DNA from: a virus
DNA length: 24,611 nt
Direction: 5' to 3' (one strand)
Virus record (IMG/VR): IMGVR_UViG_3300025317_000011
Span: 1 to 24,611 of that record
Positions 575 through 24,611 of this stretch are shown piece by piece. Within the stretch, counting starts at the first letter, position 1. Every line of letters starts with the position of its first letter. The translations under genes and the position numbers were made by a program. A model generated the notes under the pieces. It was not told the DNA's origin. It ran no database searches and saw only the letters and a list, made by a program, of their open reading frames with translations.

Positions 575-705
575 AAAAAATGAACAAAGAAAAACGGAGA
601 AAATGCCGAAGATGTGATAAGGGTTTTGCTAAAGAATTTTCTTCTTATTGTAAAAACTGTATTGTGTATATTATAAACAACTGGATGATAAGAAGTTTGA
701 AATAA
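571..705 (+). CDS. Zinc-ribbon microprotein, 44 aa
   Basis: The frame begins with ATG at 571, overlapping the stop of the membrane microprotein, and ends with TAA at 703-705. It encodes 44 residues: a basic N-terminus, then CRRC near residue 12 and CKNC near residue 27, then a hydrophobic tail (IVYIINNWMI). The paired CxxC motifs indicate a single zinc site. The stop codon falls inside the 5' arm of the structured RNA predicted at 704-842, so this is the last gene of the plus-strand operon. Function unknown. Confidence 0.62.
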   Translation: MKKMNKEKRRKCRRCDKGFAKEFSSYCKNCIVYIINNWMIRSLK

Positions 706-842
706 TCATCTTTCGGCGGGGTTAATTTGTAAAGATAAGCCCTGCGATAAACCCCCAGTCTTAACTTCTTTCCGGAATCAGAGTTAAAATTGGACTTTCA
801 CGGTGGGACCGGACTCCGGTCTGGCCTCGCCGAAAGATGGTT
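704..842 (+). ncRNA. Putative structured RNA with 15-bp closing stem
   Basis: Bases 704-718 and 828-842 form a 15-bp closing stem (AATCATCTTTCGGCG with CGCCGAAAGATGGTT; one G-T pair). Inside are three further helices: 719-723 with 750-754 (GGGTT/AACCC); 757-766 with 782-796 (AGTC and TTAACT arms, with a 5-base bulge on the 3' side); and a perfect hairpin 807-821 (GACCGG-ACT-CCGGTC). This resembles a multibranched RNA. It is not a tRNA by anticodon or T-loop, and I do not recognise a riboswitch class. The strand is assigned from the adjoining plus-strand operon; the helices could also form on the minus strand. It may be a free ncRNA or a 3'-UTR element. Confidence 0.55.
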
Positions 843-1028
843 ATTGCGTGATTGTCAAATAAGTGTTAAACTTAAATCAGTAGAAATTCTTGAATTTTTG
901 CCAGTTCTATAAAAGATTTTTTAATAAATTCAGGACCTGGGCATCTTTTCAAAAACTTCAGCTTAATATGCAGCGCGAAACCTGCTTCTGACGATTCGCT
1001 CGTTAGATAAGAGCGATACACAAAACCT
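843..1028. other. Non-coding spacer in convergent junction
   Basis: No credible gene was found on either strand. The stretch is AT-rich and contains one clear small hairpin, TCGCTC (996-1001) pairing with GAGCGA (1011-1016) around a 9-base loop. A weaker AT palindrome lies at 884-897. It sits between the putative RNA at 704-842 and the terminator at 1029-1061, so it may belong to the same transcript. Confidence 0.5.
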
Positions 1029-1061
1029 CCCTTAATTGTCCTCACGGGTTAAGGGATTTTT
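1029..1061 (+). terminator. Intrinsic terminator, probably bidirectional
   Basis: CCCTTAA (1029-1035) pairs with TTAAGGG (1049-1055), followed by ATTTTT (1056-1061), which is a good rho-independent terminator for the plus-strand operon. On the minus strand the same stem is followed after two bases by TTTT, so it may also stop transcription arriving from the HNH gene at 1174. Confidence 0.75.
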
Positions 1062-1173: not shown

Positions 1174-1533
1174 CTATTTGGGACGATTCAGTATCTTATT
1201 TCTCCACAACTCGCTATCAACCCGAACATTTTTATTGAACGATTTGAAATTCATCAGATGTCCGACAAAAAGATGATGTTCGGGACAAAGTGTAATCAAA
1301 TTATCAGGACTTAATTCAAGACTTTTATCCACCGAAAACATAACACAATGATGCACATTTAATGGTCTTATCAAACCGGCCTTTCGTCCACAGACTGCAC
1401 AGGTTGGAAACTTTCTTAAATATTCTTTCCGCACAGCAGCCCACTTCGGACTGCGCAAACCTCCTAATAATGGCTTGCCTTGAAACCAATCCTGAATCCA
1501 ATAATAGAATTGTATAATTTTCTCTATAATCAT
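1174..1533 (-). CDS. HNH endonuclease, 119 aa
   Basis: This is a 119-residue HNH nuclease of the small phage type. C45 and C48 (CAVC) start the zinc-supported fold. The catalytic region contains VHH (H61, H62), N78 in SPDNLITLC, and C83 with H86/H87 (CPEHH). That order matches the beta-beta-alpha metal core that nicks or cuts DNA. Upstream is only a basic, hydrophobic N-terminal helix. It is the last minus-strand gene before the convergent junction. Stand-alone HNH proteins in phages are either homing nucleases or packaging partners; since another HNH lies beside the terminase genes, this one looks more like a mobile or accessory copy, which is inference. ATG is at 1533. Confidence 0.85.
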   Translation of the reverse strand: MIIEKIIQFYYWIQDWFQGKPLLGGLRSPKWAAVRKEYLRKFPTCAVCGRKAGLIRPLNVHHCVMFSVDKSLELSPDNLITLCPEHHLFVGHLMNFKSFNKNVRVDSELWRNKILNRPK

Positions 1534-1596: not shown

Positions 1597-1830
1597 TTAC
1601 TTACCCGCCAATTTTCTAAATGCGCCAATCACTCTTTCTTCCAATGCGAATGTTCGGTTTAGGACCTTAGTTAATTCTCCAACGCCAAGTCCGATTATTG
1701 CCACCACAACTGGCGGTAATTCAAGCAATCCTATATTGGCACTGACAAATGCCAGAAGCGCCGCGAGCGACATTCCCAGTAGACGCCATAGAAAAGATTT
1801 TAATCTGTTTAGAAATTCTTTTGTATTCAT
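1597..1830 (-). CDS. Small two-helix membrane protein, holin candidate, 77 aa
   Basis: The chosen start (MNTKEFL, ATG at 1830) overlaps the amidase stop as ATGA, matching the coupling used throughout this cluster; a longer in-frame start exists at 1854. The 77-residue product has an amphipathic basic N-terminus, hydrophobic segments at about residues 13-36 and 40-58, and a charged C-terminal tail (ending FRKLAGK). Size, two membrane spans and immediate coupling to an endolysin gene fit a class II holin, which would form inner-membrane lesions letting the amidase reach the cell wall. The assignment rests on topology and context, not sequence identity. The other 77-residue membrane protein at 3169-3402 is a rival candidate. 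Confidence 0.65.
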   Translation of the reverse strand: MNTKEFLNRLKSFLWRLLGMSLAALLAFVSANIGLLELPPVVVAIIGLGVGELTKVLNRTFALEERVIGAFRKLAGK

Positions 1831-2366
1831 TTTCTTGTATTTATATCTATACACGGCGAGGAAGCCGACCCCATCTTCCCCGCTTTTAATCTCATAAGCA
1901 AATCCTTAAGGGAATTAAGCAGGGTATTGTAATATGACATATCTGGCTGGAAAAGTTGTTTAATCTCCGATTCTGGCCACATCAATCCGGGACAAGTTTT
2001 AAATTTCGTAAAATTTCTATGACCAAAAACATTATCAGGCAAAATTGAATGCTCCGTCATTTTATGAAGAATCAAATTTTTAACGGCTGATAACTGGAGT
2101 TGGGTCGGTCTTTCGTAATCGTGATTGCCCGCAACTCCAATTCCAATGGAATCTGAATTATATCCTTGAACGTGGGCTTGTTGTTCAGTATCGGTGCGGG
2201 TCTGTATGACCTTGCCATTTCGTTCTAAGAAATAAGTATATCCTATCCAATATCCAAGTGAAGATTTAGGAAAATCCAACTGTCGGTGCCAATTATCTAC
2301 TCTCTCCAGTTGATTGAATGGATATAAATCAGCGGTTGTATGAACAATAATTCTTACAGGTTTCAT
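1827..2366 (-). CDS. N-acetylmuramoyl-L-alanine amidase (endolysin, Amidase_2 family)
   Basis: This amidase_2/PGRP-fold endolysin would cleave the bond between N-acetylmuramic acid and L-alanine in peptidoglycan at lysis. With the start at 2366 (MKPVRIIVH) it is 179 residues. Likely zinc ligands are H9 in IIVHTTAD, H116 in FGHRNF and C125 in KTCPG. Family landmarks IGYTYFLERNG (about 41-51) and SIGIGVAGNHD (about 73-83) are also present. An alternative start at 2399 adds 11 residues, but the 2366 ATG forms an ATGA overlap with the preceding peptidase gene, as in neighbouring genes. Residues beyond about 145 are a helical tail with no recognised wall-binding repeat. The next gene is a holin candidate, giving a compact lysis cassette. 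Confidence 0.88.
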   Translation of the reverse strand: MKPVRIIVHTTADLYPFNQLERVDNWHRQLDFPKSSLGYWIGYTYFLERNGKVIQTRTDTEQQAHVQGYNSDSIGIGVAGNHDYERPTQLQLSAVKNLILHKMTEHSILPDNVFGHRNFTKFKTCPGLMWPESEIKQLFQPDMSYYNTLLNSLKDLLMRLKAGKMGSASSPCIDINTRK

Positions 2367-3172
2367 AATCCCAAAAATCTTAATAATCTCCTCCACCAAG
2401 ATTCTTTCATAATTTTCTCAAGTGAAAATCTCTTGGCTTGTCCGAAAGTAAAATCCCAAGCCAATTTCTTGATACCGGCATCATATGAATCAAAGATTAA
2501 CCAGTATTCGCTCTCCTCATATCCGAATAAACAGACCCAATGATTGGGAGAGCCTTGCGAAATATATAATCCATTCTGTTCGGCCCAGGCAAAAACTGCA
2601 ATTCCCACGGGAGAATACTGTAGGGCAGTTTTTAATCTATTCTCTCTATCTTTTTGATTCTCTCCGCCTTGTAAAACCCATTCGTGGCCGAAGGAGAATC
2701 TAGTAAGCCAATTTTTACCTTCCGCTTCACAATCTTGTTGATTTGCCCCAAGGAACGAGAAATACATCTCTGGCGTAATTAAATTATCCGTGAATGGTAA
2801 CATATCTTCGGAAATCAATCCCGAATGACGAACTGCTTGTGCAATCGCATGAGGTGAATTGCCCGGAGGAAATGTGCCAGCCGCAATTCCTAGAAACCTA
2901 TCAGAATTATTTGTGTCTTCTCCGAATTTCTTTTTATGCAAAATCTCTAATGCGTTCGTAGTTCCAAATGCTGTACAGTTATATGTTTCCAAATAATTCT
3001 TCCGCTGAATTTCCAAGACTGGAAGTTCCTTGTCCCATTGTCCATTGGGCTGGATTATCTGGCCCCCAAGACTAACTCCGCCGCCAAGAACATAATGATC
3101 TTCGGCAATCTTATCGGGAATAAACCCAAGATTGGGAATCTTGCGAATTTTTATTTTATTCTTTTTCTTCAT
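2363..3172 (-). CDS. Papain-like cysteine peptidase, 269 aa
   Basis: The protein looks like a C1/papain-fold cysteine peptidase. C66 sits in YNCTAFGTTNALE, a helix-starting nucleophile context. H211 (SPNHWVCLFGY) and D228 (LIFDSYD) follow with the spacing expected for the His and Asn/Asp of the catalytic triad. No signal peptide or membrane segment is seen. The N-terminal 50 residues (NLGFIPD, WDKELP) could be a propeptide-like lead. It is ATGA-coupled to the gene upstream and to the amidase downstream, so it belongs to the lysis/membrane cassette. Possible jobs are cleaving cell-wall peptide cross-links (as CHAP or C39 relatives do) or processing the exported proteins encoded upstream. The substrate cannot be told from sequence. 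Confidence 0.7.
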   Translation of the reverse strand: MKKKNKIKIRKIPNLGFIPDKIAEDHYVLGGGVSLGGQIIQPNGQWDKELPVLEIQRKNYLETYNCTAFGTTNALEILHKKKFGEDTNNSDRFLGIAAGTFPPGNSPHAIAQAVRHSGLISEDMLPFTDNLITPEMYFSFLGANQQDCEAEGKNWLTRFSFGHEWVLQGGENQKDRENRLKTALQYSPVGIAVFAWAEQNGLYISQGSPNHWVCLFGYEESEYWLIFDSYDAGIKKLAWDFTFGQAKRFSLEKIMKESWWRRLLRFLGL

Positions 3173-3851: not shown

Positions 3852-4654
3852 TAAAGTTGTATCCATAACCAAGGTCTTGAATTATTTGGTGCAGTCGCAG
3901 GTCCTGCTTGAGCAGGAACACCATCAATAGAAAGAGTATCAAGCCAAAACGAATCAGAGGAACCACCACTAAATTGAATAGTTCCAGCATTGCCAGTCGT
4001 ATCTAATGTTCTGCAAGTAGACCAAGCGCCGCCATTGAAACTCGCAGTTACTTGCGTTGAAGAACATCCTTTTCCACTACCAAAATCGCCCGCATAATCA
4101 ACCAATACTTGCTGAAATGTATTTTCAGTCCAAGAACCAAGATTATCTGTTCCGCCTGAAGCACGAAGTAACACACTACCGCCCGCACCTGGTCTATTTA
4201 CTATAATTGAAAAAAGCTCTCCAGCATCTGAACAATCAAATTGTCCAAAGACACCATCGGGACAAAAGAAAACTGCATTTCCTTCGCTGTTAGTTTCAGT
4301 AGCTTTACTAAAATAAAAACTAATACGACCGCCTGCTGTAATAGCTCCAAATTGACGATAAACAAAAGTTGCATTGGTGTTTTCTGCTGTTACACAATTT
4401 CCTGATGAAGGAGCTGAACAGGAAGCATCAGCAGTAATTGTCGGGTCTGTTTGCGAAGCGGGCGTAGATGTAAAACTCCAAGCCGAAGTAAAATTACTTC
4501 CGCCATTTTTTCCAATTAAACCTTCGGTCGCAGTATAGTCAAAACCCTCTGTTGCCGTAGCCGCAAAAGCAATTTCTGGAAGACTGAAACTTGTCCAAAA
4601 AATAAACAATCCTATAAAGATTATTAGAAATATCTTTTTAGCTTTCTTCAACAT
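3851..4654 (-). CDS. Exported beta-rich protein, 267 aa
   Basis: The start at 4654 (MLKKAKKIFLIIF) gives a textbook signal peptide with a basic n-region, a hydrophobic core (IIFIGLFIFW) and a probable cut after IAFA near residue 34. The longer open frame from 4702 adds a charged lead that would hide it. The mature part is Gly/Ser/Thr-rich with repeated Cys (CSAPSSGNC, FFCPDGVFGQFDCSD, GCSSTQ, WSTCR) and motifs such as SFYFSKATETNSEG and SDSFWLDTLSIDG. The latter resemble concanavalin-like or jelly-roll carbohydrate-binding modules seen in bacterial surface proteins. The gene lies at the 3' end of the fibre-like block, so it may be a host-surface adhesin or receptor-masking protein. The fold assignment is inference. 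Confidence 0.6.
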   Translation of the reverse strand: MLKKAKKIFLIIFIGLFIFWTSFSLPEIAFAATATEGFDYTATEGLIGKNGGSNFTSAWSFTSTPASQTDPTITADASCSAPSSGNCVTAENTNATFVYRQFGAITAGGRISFYFSKATETNSEGNAVFFCPDGVFGQFDCSDAGELFSIIVNRPGAGGSVLLRASGGTDNLGSWTENTFQQVLVDYAGDFGSGKGCSSTQVTASFNGGAWSTCRTLDTTGNAGTIQFSGGSSDSFWLDTLSIDGVPAQAGPATAPNNSRPWLWIQL

Positions 4655-7333: not shown

Positions 7334-7471
7334 ATGAACTTCACAAACGATCCATACGGATTAAAAGCGTGCTTGGTGCTATTTGTACTCATTGGAATTG
7401 GTATATTGCTTTGGAATTTCATTGGTTTAGATTCTGGTTCCGGTGGAACACCTTATAATTTAATTGAATAA
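7334..7471 (+). CDS. Single-span membrane microprotein, 45 aa
   Basis: ATG at 7334 opens a 45-residue frame ending at TAA 7469-7471. The first ten residues are polar (MNFTNDPYGL), followed by one membrane helix (about 11-32, containing CLVLFVLIGIGILLWNFIGL) and a short Gly/Ser tail. It is one of only two genes on the plus strand in the middle of a minus-strand virion block and lies right behind a good promoter. Its stop overlaps the next ATG (TAATG). It could be an early-expressed peptide affecting the host membrane, such as superinfection exclusion or lysis timing. No family is recognised. Confidence 0.65.
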   Translation: MNFTNDPYGLKACLVLFVLIGIGILLWNFIGLDSGSGGTPYNLIE

Positions 7472-20443: not shown

Positions 20444-21262
20444 TCATTCGCAAAGTGGCGTACGGAGCGAAGCGAGTTGCGCAACGCGTTCTTTGTTCCA
20501 ATCACAAGGATAATTAAATTTTTCAATGAGACCAGCGATTTTTTTATTCAAATATCTTTTTCTTAATTCGTTGAGAGTGGCCCTGATATGTTCTTTGTTT
20601 CTTTGATACGGGAATTGGCTTTCTTTTTCCCGAAACATATGAGCGTAATAAACTTTTTTCGCAGTCGCGCACCGCCCGCCATTCAACCATGCCTTAATCC
20701 CCAACTCCGCAGCTTGTCCTCCCCAACTTCCCAAGGATTCATCGCATATATTCCATTTCCAGTAATTCTCGCGCGTAATCATCCACGCCGAACCTTGCAA
20801 GCACATTGTTTCATTCAACAATTCGCTATTCTCGCCCTTAGGATGGTATTGAAATACCAAATTCGTATCAAAGGCGTATGAAGATGCCGGTGTAATTAAA
20901 GGAATTTCCCATTTCTCGGCATCCAATGGCATAAGACGCGGCGCCAGAATGGTTCTATCATCAATATCCTCCAGCATTATCCGGTCAAATCCTTGTGAGA
21001 ACGAAACATGCGCGTCAATCTTCATTACATAATCCGCTTCGGAAAGCCGAGCGAGTTCGTTTGTTATGGCGCGTTGACCAATACTTTTATCTTTCCAAAT
21101 ATATTCCACATTTGGCAAGTTTCGCATTCTATAATCCTTCGTCCATCCATCTAAACCGACAAGAATTTCCGTGTCGGATTCCTTATGCTTCAAAATATCA
21201 TCTATTGTTTTATCAAGATATTTTTCATCTCTGGCCGGAACAAGAATTGAAATCTTGACCAT
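20444..21262 (-). CDS. Family 2/27-like glycosyltransferase, 272 aa
   Basis: GT-A fold glycosyltransferase. The N-terminus (MVKISILVPARDEKYLDKTI) is a typical family-2 start. DAH (residues 83-85, in VMKIDAHVSFS) matches the DxH metal/nucleotide-sugar motif. Farther on, WGGQAAELGIKAWLNGG resembles the acceptor-side motif of ppGalNAc-transferase-like enzymes. It would transfer a sugar from a nucleotide donor to a protein or glycan. The start overlaps the terminase stop (TAATG), so it is translated with packaging genes. A possible role is glycosylating virion proteins such as the Thr/Ser-rich ones encoded downstream; that is inference. Confidence 0.82.
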   Translation of the reverse strand: MVKISILVPARDEKYLDKTIDDILKHKESDTEILVGLDGWTKDYRMRNLPNVEYIWKDKSIGQRAITNELARLSEADYVMKIDAHVSFSQGFDRIMLEDIDDRTILAPRLMPLDAEKWEIPLITPASSYAFDTNLVFQYHPKGENSELLNETMCLQGSAWMITRENYWKWNICDESLGSWGGQAAELGIKAWLNGGRCATAKKVYYAHMFREKESQFPYQRNKEHIRATLNELRKRYLNKKIAGLIEKFNYPCDWNKERVAQLASLRTPLCE

Positions 21263-23265
21263 TATTTTGTTGAGTTCATACCCATTTTATTCTGATTTTT
21301 AGCAAAATATTCATCCAATCTTTGCTTCATTTCCCCGCCATTTTCCGCCATCAGCATTGAAATGCAGTACCTGGTAGCATCGCAATTACTTACCATTATT
21401 CCATTTGCGAGATACATACCACTTTTCGTTTTCAGATTGTAAACGGGTACGCGACCAACGTAACGCTTTCTGACGACAGTTGAGATGGCAGAATCTACCT
21501 CTCTCTGGGTATTTTGTGAAGTATTTTTTTCTGCATAAGTCGCATTTTCGCTCAATAATCGGTCTGTTGTACATGAAATGGGCATTTTGCAACCCCAATT
21601 CTCTCCTACGTTTTTTACCGGTTGGAGTTTTAGACCATTGAGAGGCCAATTCAATAATTGTTTTAATGTTCTCTCTAGCCCACTCGCGCTTTTCTTTCGT
21701 CCAATGATGATGAGCGTGTTCGCCGCGCTCCATAATCCCAAGATTACTAATTGAATTATTGAGGGGATTGCCGTCAATATGATGAACAATGAATCCTTTA
21801 GGCACCTCTCCATTTTTCTTTCGCCAAATATATCTATGTAATCTCTCTCTCTTGCCTCTAAAAGTCGCTTTATTGCCGAGATAATAACTCCTTTCAACCC
21901 ATTTAGGACTGTTTGGATATCTAGTCCAGCCGATACCATCATAAATATTTTTTTCTTTTTCCATACAACATCATCATAACGCAATGTGTCTATATCAATC
22001 AATCCTCTGTTAGTTAGTACGGGATGATTGGGTGTGGCAATTAACTTTTCTTCTGCCACTTCGTACTCGTAAACATTTTCAGTTCCGGTTTTCGTGCCAA
22101 TTTCTTCAATTTTTTTACCATTTACGATAGTTCCGGCAACAAAACACATATGATCTGCGCGCTTTATCGGTTTCTCGTTGGCATTCCGATTATCTTTTTC
22201 TTCATCGTACGAATAACTCTCCAGTTCGGCAATAAGATTTATACATCGCTTATGGATTTTTAATTTGCCGGTCTTAAATAATTCCTGAATTTTGCTTATG
22301 CCGGCTTCTACGCTCCCTTTGCCTTTCGCTACCTCCCTGACATTTACTCGTTTGCGATTCAATTCTTCAATAGCCGCCGGATTTTCCGGATCGGGATATA
22401 CCGCTTCAAAACTGCAGCCAGCTACATACTCGGCTATCTGAATATCGGTCTTTTCCGTCTTGTACCATTCATTTGAAACAAAAAATCTATCACCATCAGA
22501 ATAAATCTCCGCCACTGCCGCTGGATTTCTATATCCGAAGTCTACACCGGCGTATCGTTTGAATGATTTGGGCACCAGATTATCATCTTCATATAAATGC
22601 AAAGCGCGACTAAATCCTTTATAAACCAGTCCGGTTGTCTTTGTGAACTCTGCCAGATATTCCTGACTAAATCTATCCTCTGGCAATGTCTCCTTGGCAG
22701 CATTCAGCTCATCTACCGGCAAATAAGGATTGTCATAACTCGTAAAATGAAATGTTTTAAACTCTCGGTCTTTCAATTCAAGATTGCATAAATCAAAAAA
22801 ATGATTAAAACCCTTGGGCGTACTGGAAAATATGGCAATTCCTTGTCTATCAGTAAGAGTAGGCCTTAAAATCTCATGCCAATTAATCCAAAAATTTCGC
22901 ATTGTCGCCACTTCATCCAAGACGAGCAAATCAAATGCTTGACCGCGTAAATTCTCTACGCTTTCCCATCCACGGAGAACTATCAGACTCTCACCGCCCT
23001 TTAATGTTCTGGTCCGTATTTCCAGTCTTGCTTCGTTGGTATCAATGATCGCTCCCAATAATTCCTTCTTTAGGAATTCCCACATAATATCGCGGGCTTG
23101 CTGATAGTTATTGGCAATATAGGCGATCCTACTGGGTTTGGCAATCGCCACGCCTTTGATTTCCTCGGCATCTAATGAAGTTTTACCCCAGCGCCGACCG
23201 CAGCGAAATACTCTGAATCTATGCTTGTCCTTTGCTATCTGGCTTTGAGTTGGATGTAATATCAT
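21262..23265 (-). CDS. terL: Large terminase subunit interrupted by an intein, 667 aa precursor
   Basis: The packaging motor ATPase-nuclease. Walker A CGRRWGKTS at residues 22-30, Walker B LLVLDE at about 113-118, coupling motif FSSTPKG at about 146-152, and RNase H-like nuclease Asp residues D242 (GVDFGY) and D292 (YPDPENP). The third nuclease motif is split: DHM at 371-373 is followed by the intein (374-627), then CDATRYCISML. Removal of the intein gives a 413-residue terminase with DHMCDATRY restored, so activity should need protein splicing. The start overlaps the small-terminase-like gene by 47 bases. The frame is open through the intein although most of it is also read in the -1 frame as an HNH gene. 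Confidence 0.92.
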   Translation of the reverse strand: MILHPTQSQIAKDKHRFRVFRCGRRWGKTSLDAEEIKGVAIAKPSRIAYIANNYQQARDIMWEFLKKELLGAIIDTNEARLEIRTRTLKGGESLIVLRGWESVENLRGQAFDLLVLDEVATMRNFWINWHEILRPTLTDRQGIAIFSSTPKGFNHFFDLCNLELKDREFKTFHFTSYDNPYLPVDELNAAKETLPEDRFSQEYLAEFTKTTGLVYKGFSRALHLYEDDNLVPKSFKRYAGVDFGYRNPAAVAEIYSDGDRFFVSNEWYKTEKTDIQIAEYVAGCSFEAVYPDPENPAAIEELNRKRVNVREVAKGKGSVEAGISKIQELFKTGKLKIHKRCINLIAELESYSYDEEKDNRNANEKPIKRADHMCFVAGTIVNGKKIEEIGTKTGTENVYEYEVAEEKLIATPNHPVLTNRGLIDIDTLRYDDVVWKKKKIFMMVSAGLDIQTVLNGLKGVIISAIKRLLEARERDYIDIFGERKMERCLKDSLFIILTAIPSIIQLVILGLWSAANTLIIIGRKKSASGLERTLKQLLNWPLNGLKLQPVKNVGENWGCKMPISCTTDRLLSENATYAEKNTSQNTQREVDSAISTVVRKRYVGRVPVYNLKTKSGMYLANGIMVSNCDATRYCISMLMAENGGEMKQRLDEYFAKNQNKMGMNSTK
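21385..22146 (-). other. Intein in the large terminase nuclease motif, 254 aa
   Basis: Terminase residues 374-627. Block A is CFVAGTIVNGKKIEEIG with Cys1 as nucleophile. Block B contains KLIATPNHPVL with the conserved His. Block F is VYNLKTKSGMYLANG. Block G ends IMVSN followed by Cys+1 of the extein; the penultimate residue is Ser rather than the usual His. Residues between about 434 and 590 have no endonuclease motif in this frame because the homing nuclease is encoded in the -1 frame over the same bases. The splicing parts alone add up to roughly 100-130 residues, a mini-intein size. Insertion splits the DHxxDAxRY nuclease motif, a highly conserved site typical for intein homing. Confidence 0.9.
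21386..21964 (-). CDS. HNH homing endonuclease nested in the intein, -1 frame, 192 aa
   Basis: The frame is -1 relative to terL. It opens with ATG at 21964 (inside the terL GTA TGG codons), nine bases after an in-frame TGA, and ends with TAA at 21386-21388, one base before the intein boundary. The protein has RLHRYIWRKKNGEVPKGF, then VHHIDGNPLNN (H61, H62, D64, N66, N70), SNLGIMERGEHAHHH, and a four-Cys zinc finger C141, C144, C159, C163 (CDLC...CHLNC). These are hallmarks of phage HNH homing nucleases. No strong ribosome binding site precedes the ATG. The likely role is cutting intein-less terL genes to spread the intein. Expression by slippage at the A7 run is an alternative to independent initiation. 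Confidence 0.88.
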   Translation of the reverse strand: MEKEKNIYDGIGWTRYPNSPKWVERSYYLGNKATFRGKRERLHRYIWRKKNGEVPKGFIVHHIDGNPLNNSISNLGIMERGEHAHHHWTKEKREWARENIKTIIELASQWSKTPTGKKRRRELGLQNAHFMYNRPIIERKCDLCRKKYFTKYPERGRFCHLNCRQKALRWSRTRLQSENEKWYVSRKWNNGK

Positions 23266-23973: not shown

Positions 23974-24384
23974 TTATATCACAAATTTCCTAATTAAAGT
24001 CCGCACTTGATATTTTGTAATTCCCAGTTGATACAACGAACTTGACAAATTATCCGATAACTCGTCCAAGCATTCCTTAGCCGCCTTTGCTCCCAGCGCC
24101 TTACTAACAAACTTCCATTGATTGGCATATGCTTCAATCTCTTGTGTTTGTCGGAATTCCTTATTGTTTATATATTTCAACCACCATAATTCGGGATTAT
24201 TACTTTGTTGTTTCGCGTGGATTTCCTCATGGAACATTATATCCGCCGGAATATCATTACCTCTAGGATTATACAATTTCTTCCCCCAAGGAAACAATGG
24301 TTGATATTCTGGTGAGTCTATGGGGAAATGTTGTCTTAATTCCCGTGCATTCGGTGGCCAATCCTTAATAATCTCAAAGTTCAT
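23974..24384 (-). CDS. Small putative zinc metallopeptidase, 136 aa
   Basis: Contains HEEIH (H52, E53, H56), a zinc-peptidase signature, followed about 26 residues later by QEIEAYANQW with E82 or E84 as candidate third ligand, the spacing of gluzincins. The rest is helical, with a charged middle and a C-terminal basic tail. No signal peptide. ATG at 24384 overlaps the stop of the small zinc-ribbon gene (ATGA). A role could be trimming of a host or virion protein. A similar HExxH motif ends the 1062-residue polyvalent protein, but the two proteins are not alike in length or context. Confidence 0.62.
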   Translation of the reverse strand: MNFEIIKDWPPNARELRQHFPIDSPEYQPLFPWGKKLYNPRGNDIPADIMFHEEIHAKQQSNNPELWWLKYINNKEFRQTQEIEAYANQWKFVSKALGAKAAKECLDELSDNLSSSLYQLGITKYQVRTLIRKFVI

Positions 24385-24521
24385 TCTTTTGGTGGCGTGA
24401 AATTCTTTATTTGCTTAAGTTGGTTGTCTTTATTTTTAAGAATCTTGTACATCAAATTTCCACACTTATCGCATACATAATAATCATGCTTGGGGAATTT
24501 CTTGGTCTTGATTCTTTTCAT
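24381..24521 (-). CDS. Zinc-ribbon microprotein, 46 aa
   Basis: ATG at 24521, stop TGA at 24381-24383 overlapping the next ATG (ATGA). The 46-residue basic protein has CDKC near residue 17 (YVCDKCGNLMYKIL), a single Cys pair with Lys-rich flanks on both sides; it probably needs a partner or dimer for a full zinc site. It is another of the Cys-pair microproteins that recur at both ends of the window. Confidence 0.58.
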   Translation of the reverse strand: MKRIKTKKFPKHDYYVCDKCGNLMYKILKNKDNQLKQIKNFTPPKE

Positions 24522-24528
24522 ATCTTTT

Positions 24529-24611
24529 CTATTTTCCGCACACCGCTTGAAGATTGGCAACCGTCTTACTCATTTCCGCGATCTGATTAATATATGGAGT
24601 CAAATCCGTAG
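24529..24611 (-). CDS. C-terminal fragment of an unknown protein (partial, starts beyond window)
   Basis: An open minus-strand frame runs from the right window edge to TAG at 24529-24531 and gives 26 residues, TDLTPYINQIAEMSKTVANL then QAVCGK. It looks helical. The gene extends beyond the window, so nothing more can be said. Confidence 0.45.
   Translation of the reverse strand, partial: TDLTPYINQIAEMSKTVANLQAVCGK

Follow-up and report, generated by a model that had tools for sequence, protein, structure and literature searches.

A predicted four-way structure, probably an RNA, at the 3' terminus of an operon of small genes in an uncultured phage

What is the folded element that begins on the last stop codon of a small-gene operon in an uncultured phage? 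The window, the whole stretch of 24,611 nucleotides that was analysed, is a genome fragment from an IMG/VR record. Near its left end, positions 701-845 of the plus strand comprise a 145-nt element predicted to fold into a four-way structure, in which a closing stem (P1) encloses three hairpins (P2, P3, and P4). The element is noncoding and lies directly 3' of the last plus-strand open reading frame (ORF) and 5' of a terminator-like hairpin.

P1 is composed of a 5' arm at 701-718 and a 3' arm at 828-845, which pair in the minimum free energy (MFE) fold and in the pair probabilities (0.84-1.0 over the 5' arm). The stem contains 18 uninterrupted pairs, one of them U-G. The first-pass annotation had described a 15-bp stem at 704-842; the stem is present, and three more pairs extend it to 18 bp. 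It had also placed the 5' arm over the last stop codon, and the TAA at 703-705 indeed falls inside 701-718. At least three enclosed helices had been proposed, and P2, P3, and P4 all appear in the fold.

P2 (719-742) is the least certain helix. About half of the ensemble pairs 719-722 with 751-754 instead. P3 (755-793) corresponds to the bulged two-part stem seen at first pass and is built from 755-759/789-793 and 761-767/781-787. Its pair probabilities are mostly 0.77-1.0, with the exception of 767/781 (0.45). P4 (802-826) consists of an outer segment, 802-804/824-826, and an inner segment, 806-812/816-822, with pair probabilities of 0.97-1.0. The perfect hairpin GACCGG-ACT-CCGGTC, also recognised earlier, maps to 807-821 within P4. 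In addition, the P3 loop presents an 8-nt palindrome, UUCCGGAA, at 770-777. Its unpaired probability is 0.71-1.0, and a loop-loop duplex is predicted at -12.1 kcal/mol. The palindromic loop may allow dimerisation, at a site of a kind expected by chance in 2.4% of random 13-nt loops.

The computed fold is far more stable than expected from composition. The MFE of 704-842 is -57.5 kcal/mol, compared with -37.4 ± 3.7 kcal/mol for shuffled sequences (z -5.4), and none of 200 shuffles is as stable. P1 also has the highest long-range stem score of the window, 51.5. When all 24.6 kb were dinucleotide-shuffled 100 times, the best stems averaged 33.8 and reached 47.5 at most, so that none attained P1. 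The reverse strand of 704-842 folds more weakly (-49.4 kcal/mol, z -3.65), and a direct comparison of the two strands gives -60.8 kcal/mol for plus and -48.6 kcal/mol for minus. Seven of the 49 pairs in the fold are G-U. Because of these G-U pairs and the lower stability of the reverse strand, the element is best read as a plus-strand RNA. The structure at 701-845 is real, and it is probably an RNA. Stability beyond shuffled sequence and a noncoding position, two of the marks of the general kind "phage structured noncoding RNA", are found here.

The element forms the 3' end of the plus-strand small-gene operon, at a convergent junction with the late operon. The last plus-strand ORF (547-705) encodes a CxxC..CxxC zinc-ribbon-like protein, probably starting at the ATG at 571 or 580, and its stop codon lies inside P1. 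About 180 nt downstream of the element begins a hairpin at 1028-1061 (+), TCCCTTAA..TTAAGGGA followed by TTTTT, with a stability of -14.4 kcal/mol (z -2.3). This hairpin is a probable terminator, which would make the transcript stop some 215 nt beyond P1; its loop exceeds the length allowed by the terminator scan. The spacer between P1 and the hairpin is weakly structured (z -1.0 and +0.6). A promoter scan gave no convincing promoter for the element itself. On the other side of the junction, the late operon encodes, from the junction inward, an HNH endonuclease (1174-1533, minus strand; PHROG 144, E 1.1e-13), a small holin-like protein, an amidase/endolysin (1827-2399, minus strand; PHROG 822, E 5.8e-21), a peptidase, tail, capsid, and portal proteins, and the large terminase TerL. 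The HNH gene is the last of this operon.

Portal protein relatives of this phage comprise 206 viral stretches and seven genome-collection contigs, and the set of relatives was built from the best 80 of the 206 viral stretches matching the portal protein. Neither the portal nor the capsid protein has a detectable homologue among 50,697 deposited phage records. Complete-looking relatives are ~36-41 kb in size. The contig of one relative is filed under a Parcubacteria metagenome-assembled genome (MAG), and others are filed under archaeal or unclassified MAGs; given these mixed filings, the host is not established. The relative L043 shares many identical proteins with the window. At the right end (23974-24560) the two differ, with 91% protein identity, while they are 100% identical in the adjoining genes for packaging and head, a divergence that we read as a strain mosaic. 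The TerL ORF of the window (21262-23265, minus strand) carries an apparent intein-like insertion (CFVAGTIVNGKKIEEI... to ...GIMVSNC), within which a free-standing HNH-like ORF (21386-21964) occupies another frame.

Homologues of the element were sought at the levels of RNA, DNA, and neighbouring proteins. Rfam 15 covariance scans, as suggested at first pass and including a permissive scan of the target, matched no known family; the best chance match was to a snoRNA model (E 3.6). A covariance model built from the single element sequence retrieved only the window itself from ~1.5 Mb of relatives (~90 loci from this uncultured family of phages). The same model found nothing in 379 genomes of the host phylum of one relative, where the filters were stricter than in the relatives. 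A DNA pattern of 9+9 bases of the closing stem matched 41 stretches in 2.9 million viral contigs, and among the matches listed the folds are unrelated. A pattern on the P3 loop and the following junction had no match in the viral contigs. Searches with the protein sequences of the nearby peptidase and amidase yielded no relative containing this genome end, and distant peptidase homologues were obtained only via searches in known records. Most close relatives are fragments that end short of this genome end, and the absence of the element from relatives is therefore weak evidence.

The element was compared with known kinds of structured RNA. Neither ARAGORN nor the tRNA covariance model (RF00005) finds a tRNA at the element, in agreement with the first-pass view. 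The P4 loop has 3 nt rather than the 7 nt of a T loop, and the 3' end is AUGGUUAUU rather than CCA. A resemblance to packaging RNA, proposed at first pass, is not supported. Up to E 10, no Rfam packaging-RNA family matches, the phage packages its DNA with a classical large terminase (TerL PHROG 2, E 9e-52) and not with an enzyme of the phi29 type, and TerL lies ~20 kb away on the record. The element shares with phi29-type packaging RNA a compact multi-helix architecture in a phage, and a self-pairing loop is conceivable, but it is remote from the packaging genes. Of the earlier interpretation, a structured RNA that is neither a tRNA nor a member of an Rfam family stands, and the packaging analogy lacks support. 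The element is not an intrinsic terminator either. P1 is followed by ATTGCGTG and not by a U tract, the element is multi-branched, and it is absent from the terminator scan. Like intrinsic terminators and 3'-end stabilising hairpins, it sits directly after the last stop codon, but here the hairpin at 1028-1061 is separate.

Phages often encode structured RNAs with unknown roles, such as ROOL, GOLLD, and manA. ROOL and GOLLD are phage and prophage RNAs of unknown function found near tRNA islands. The element resembles them as a phage-encoded folded RNA, and relatives have tRNA-like genes in a comparable place. It differs in that any homo-oligomer of it would be hypothetical. At 145 nt it is also much smaller than these RNAs of several hundred nucleotides, and it matches neither family in Rfam. 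The ROOL RNA env-120 is 659 nt long, and many of the GOLLD RNAs are longer than 800 nt (PMC12286853).

The manA RNA is found in T4-like cyanophages. It is documented in cyanophages and marine bacteria (PMC2864571, PMC9964418). The element itself has no covariance model match to manA; both are structured phage RNAs, but manA occurs in potential 5' UTRs whereas the element follows a stop codon. The phage lineage does contain a sub-threshold manA relative. A second RNA of ~200 nt lies on L043 at 4434-4638 (+), upstream of TerL, with the manA relative mapped to 4427-4622, and has homologues at L159:12971-13167 (+) (genome G030), L194:1505-1700 (-), and L195:10687-10878 (-). These four RNAs share the invariant blocks GUGGC-GAA, UCCGAAGGGG, and AUUCUAGAUA, contain compensatory pairs, and conserve the palindrome UCUAGA in the region of the last loop. 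They align end to end with manA (RF01745) at sub-threshold E values of 2.6e-4, 0.0034, 0.005, and 0.44, and the single-genome E value is ~1e-6 for three of the four. The range of manA-like RNA thus probably includes this family of phages.

Long-stem elements also occur elsewhere in the family. A count of closed long-stem elements in noncoding DNA gave 20 in relatives (12 multi-branched) in 748 kb, 87 kb of it noncoding, and three (one multi-branched) in seven classical phages in 293 kb, 30 kb of it noncoding. Two shuffled sets gave zero and one. The difference between 20 per 87 kb and three per 30 kb is not significant (p 0.12). The complete relative G024 has a matching convergent junction with late genes ending in lysis genes, and on the strand of its non-late genes carries two elements with closing stems of 18 (22748-22850 and 22606-22738) and a tRNA-like gene (22431-22509, 40.6 bits). 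In G012, three tandem elements, mostly three-hairpin, lie beside lysis-region genes, between the peptidase and downstream genes (L140:15039-15388). G038 has one such element with a weak tRNA-like match, also beside lysis-region genes. In G026, a tRNA-Ser (7379-7450) is contained in an extended stem formed by its leader and trailer (L157:7355-7475). Pairwise nhmmer searches among the structured elements of the relatives detected sequence similarity only in the manA-like pair and none to the target. The slot common to G024 and the window is suggestive, and may be coincidental as the elements are unrelated in sequence.

Several further structures were seen in the relatives. A weak tRNA-like gene in G026 (L157:7497-7589) also lies within a long leader-trailer stem. 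G034 has a 113-nt tRNA-like gene (L182:1501-1613; 24206-24318 + of the genome). This gene encodes its CCA, its anticodon arm is enlarged, and its variable arm is long and contains GGCGGCGCCGCC. A long-stem RNA in G032 (L162:12845-12982, equivalent to L099:4860-4997) contains a T-arm-like GCAGGGUUCGACGCCUGC close to the 3' end and is not called as a tRNA. A single very stable stem of 28 positions, in a stretch that may or may not be coding, occurs upstream of packaging genes at L045:1253-1365 (+).

In the reading that we tentatively prefer, with a probability of about 0.4, the 3' end of the plus-strand operon transcript gives rise to a structured RNA domain as a discrete molecule. We infer the following course of transcription, processing, dimerisation, and action. 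RNA polymerase would transcribe the small genes and then 701-845, and terminate at the downstream hairpin. Release of the ribosome at the stop codon would free P1 to close. The P1 duplex would fix both ends, by double-strand cutting of the RNase III type or by 3' trimming to the stem, to give a stable RNA of ~140-150 nt with a four-way core. This RNA would probably act in trans and may self-pair through its palindromic loop. It would sit beside the late operon's lysis end, the sort of position at which tRNA-like or other structured RNA elements are found in some relatives. Against this reading, the searches found no homologue and hence no covariation, and the element has no convincing promoter of its own. 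The domain may instead act in cis, as a 3' terminus that protects the operon mRNA with no separate RNA, which is nearly as likely. Exonucleases would then trim from the terminator back to P1, and the coding part would be kept up to the stop codon. The start of P1 on the stop codon, the downstream terminator-like hairpin, and the weakly structured spacer all fit this reading, as they fit the unusual 3'-end structure suggested at first pass, and non-conservation is accounted for if any stable stem suffices. A plain hairpin would be enough for protection, however, and the three helices inside P1, with their internal G-U pairs, exceed that need. Published work also describes structured domains in bacterial 3' UTRs as highly unusual (PMC2864571). 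The discrete RNA is slightly favoured because of the enclosed helices and the G024 slot.

The remaining explanations have less in their favour. It is unlikely that the element works as a DNA-level inverted repeat, in a replication origin, a recombination site, or a small mobile element, with the RNA fold incidental. A comparable long stem does lie within the annotated origin of phage Sfi21 (34565-34689), and 18-bp terminal inverted repeats with a size of ~145 bp recall a miniature mobile element. On the other hand, the seven G-U pairs become A-C mismatches on the other strand, which folds less well, the stem arm has no second copy in the window, no related copy was seen among the matches listed for the 41 viral stretches sharing the stem bases, and no target-site duplication was seen at the ends. 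A degenerate or highly unusual tRNA-like RNA, a cloverleaf derived from a gene of a phage tRNA cluster, would match the four-way layout and the tRNA-like genes near such elements in relatives, some in extended stems as in G026. The negative tRNA searches, the 3-nt loop beside the 3' strand of the stem, and the missing CCA make it very improbable. Least credible is a short noncoding gap that folds by chance; the lack of homologues would be expected of it, but neither the local nor the whole-window shuffles reproduce the structure.

The element is a compact and easily made RNA candidate from a large phage family; its predicted fold is clear and its ends are defined. More speculatively, and with low probability, it may represent a new class of long-stem four-way RNAs that this uncultured family encodes at the lysis end alongside tRNA-like genes, each phage having its own version, excised by double-strand cutting and self-assembling through palindromic loops such as UUCCGGAA. 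If the element merely protects the message, it would provide a well-defined case of bacterial-type 3'-UTR structure. As a discrete RNA, it would raise the question of why these phages keep fold-rich RNAs between their convergent operons.
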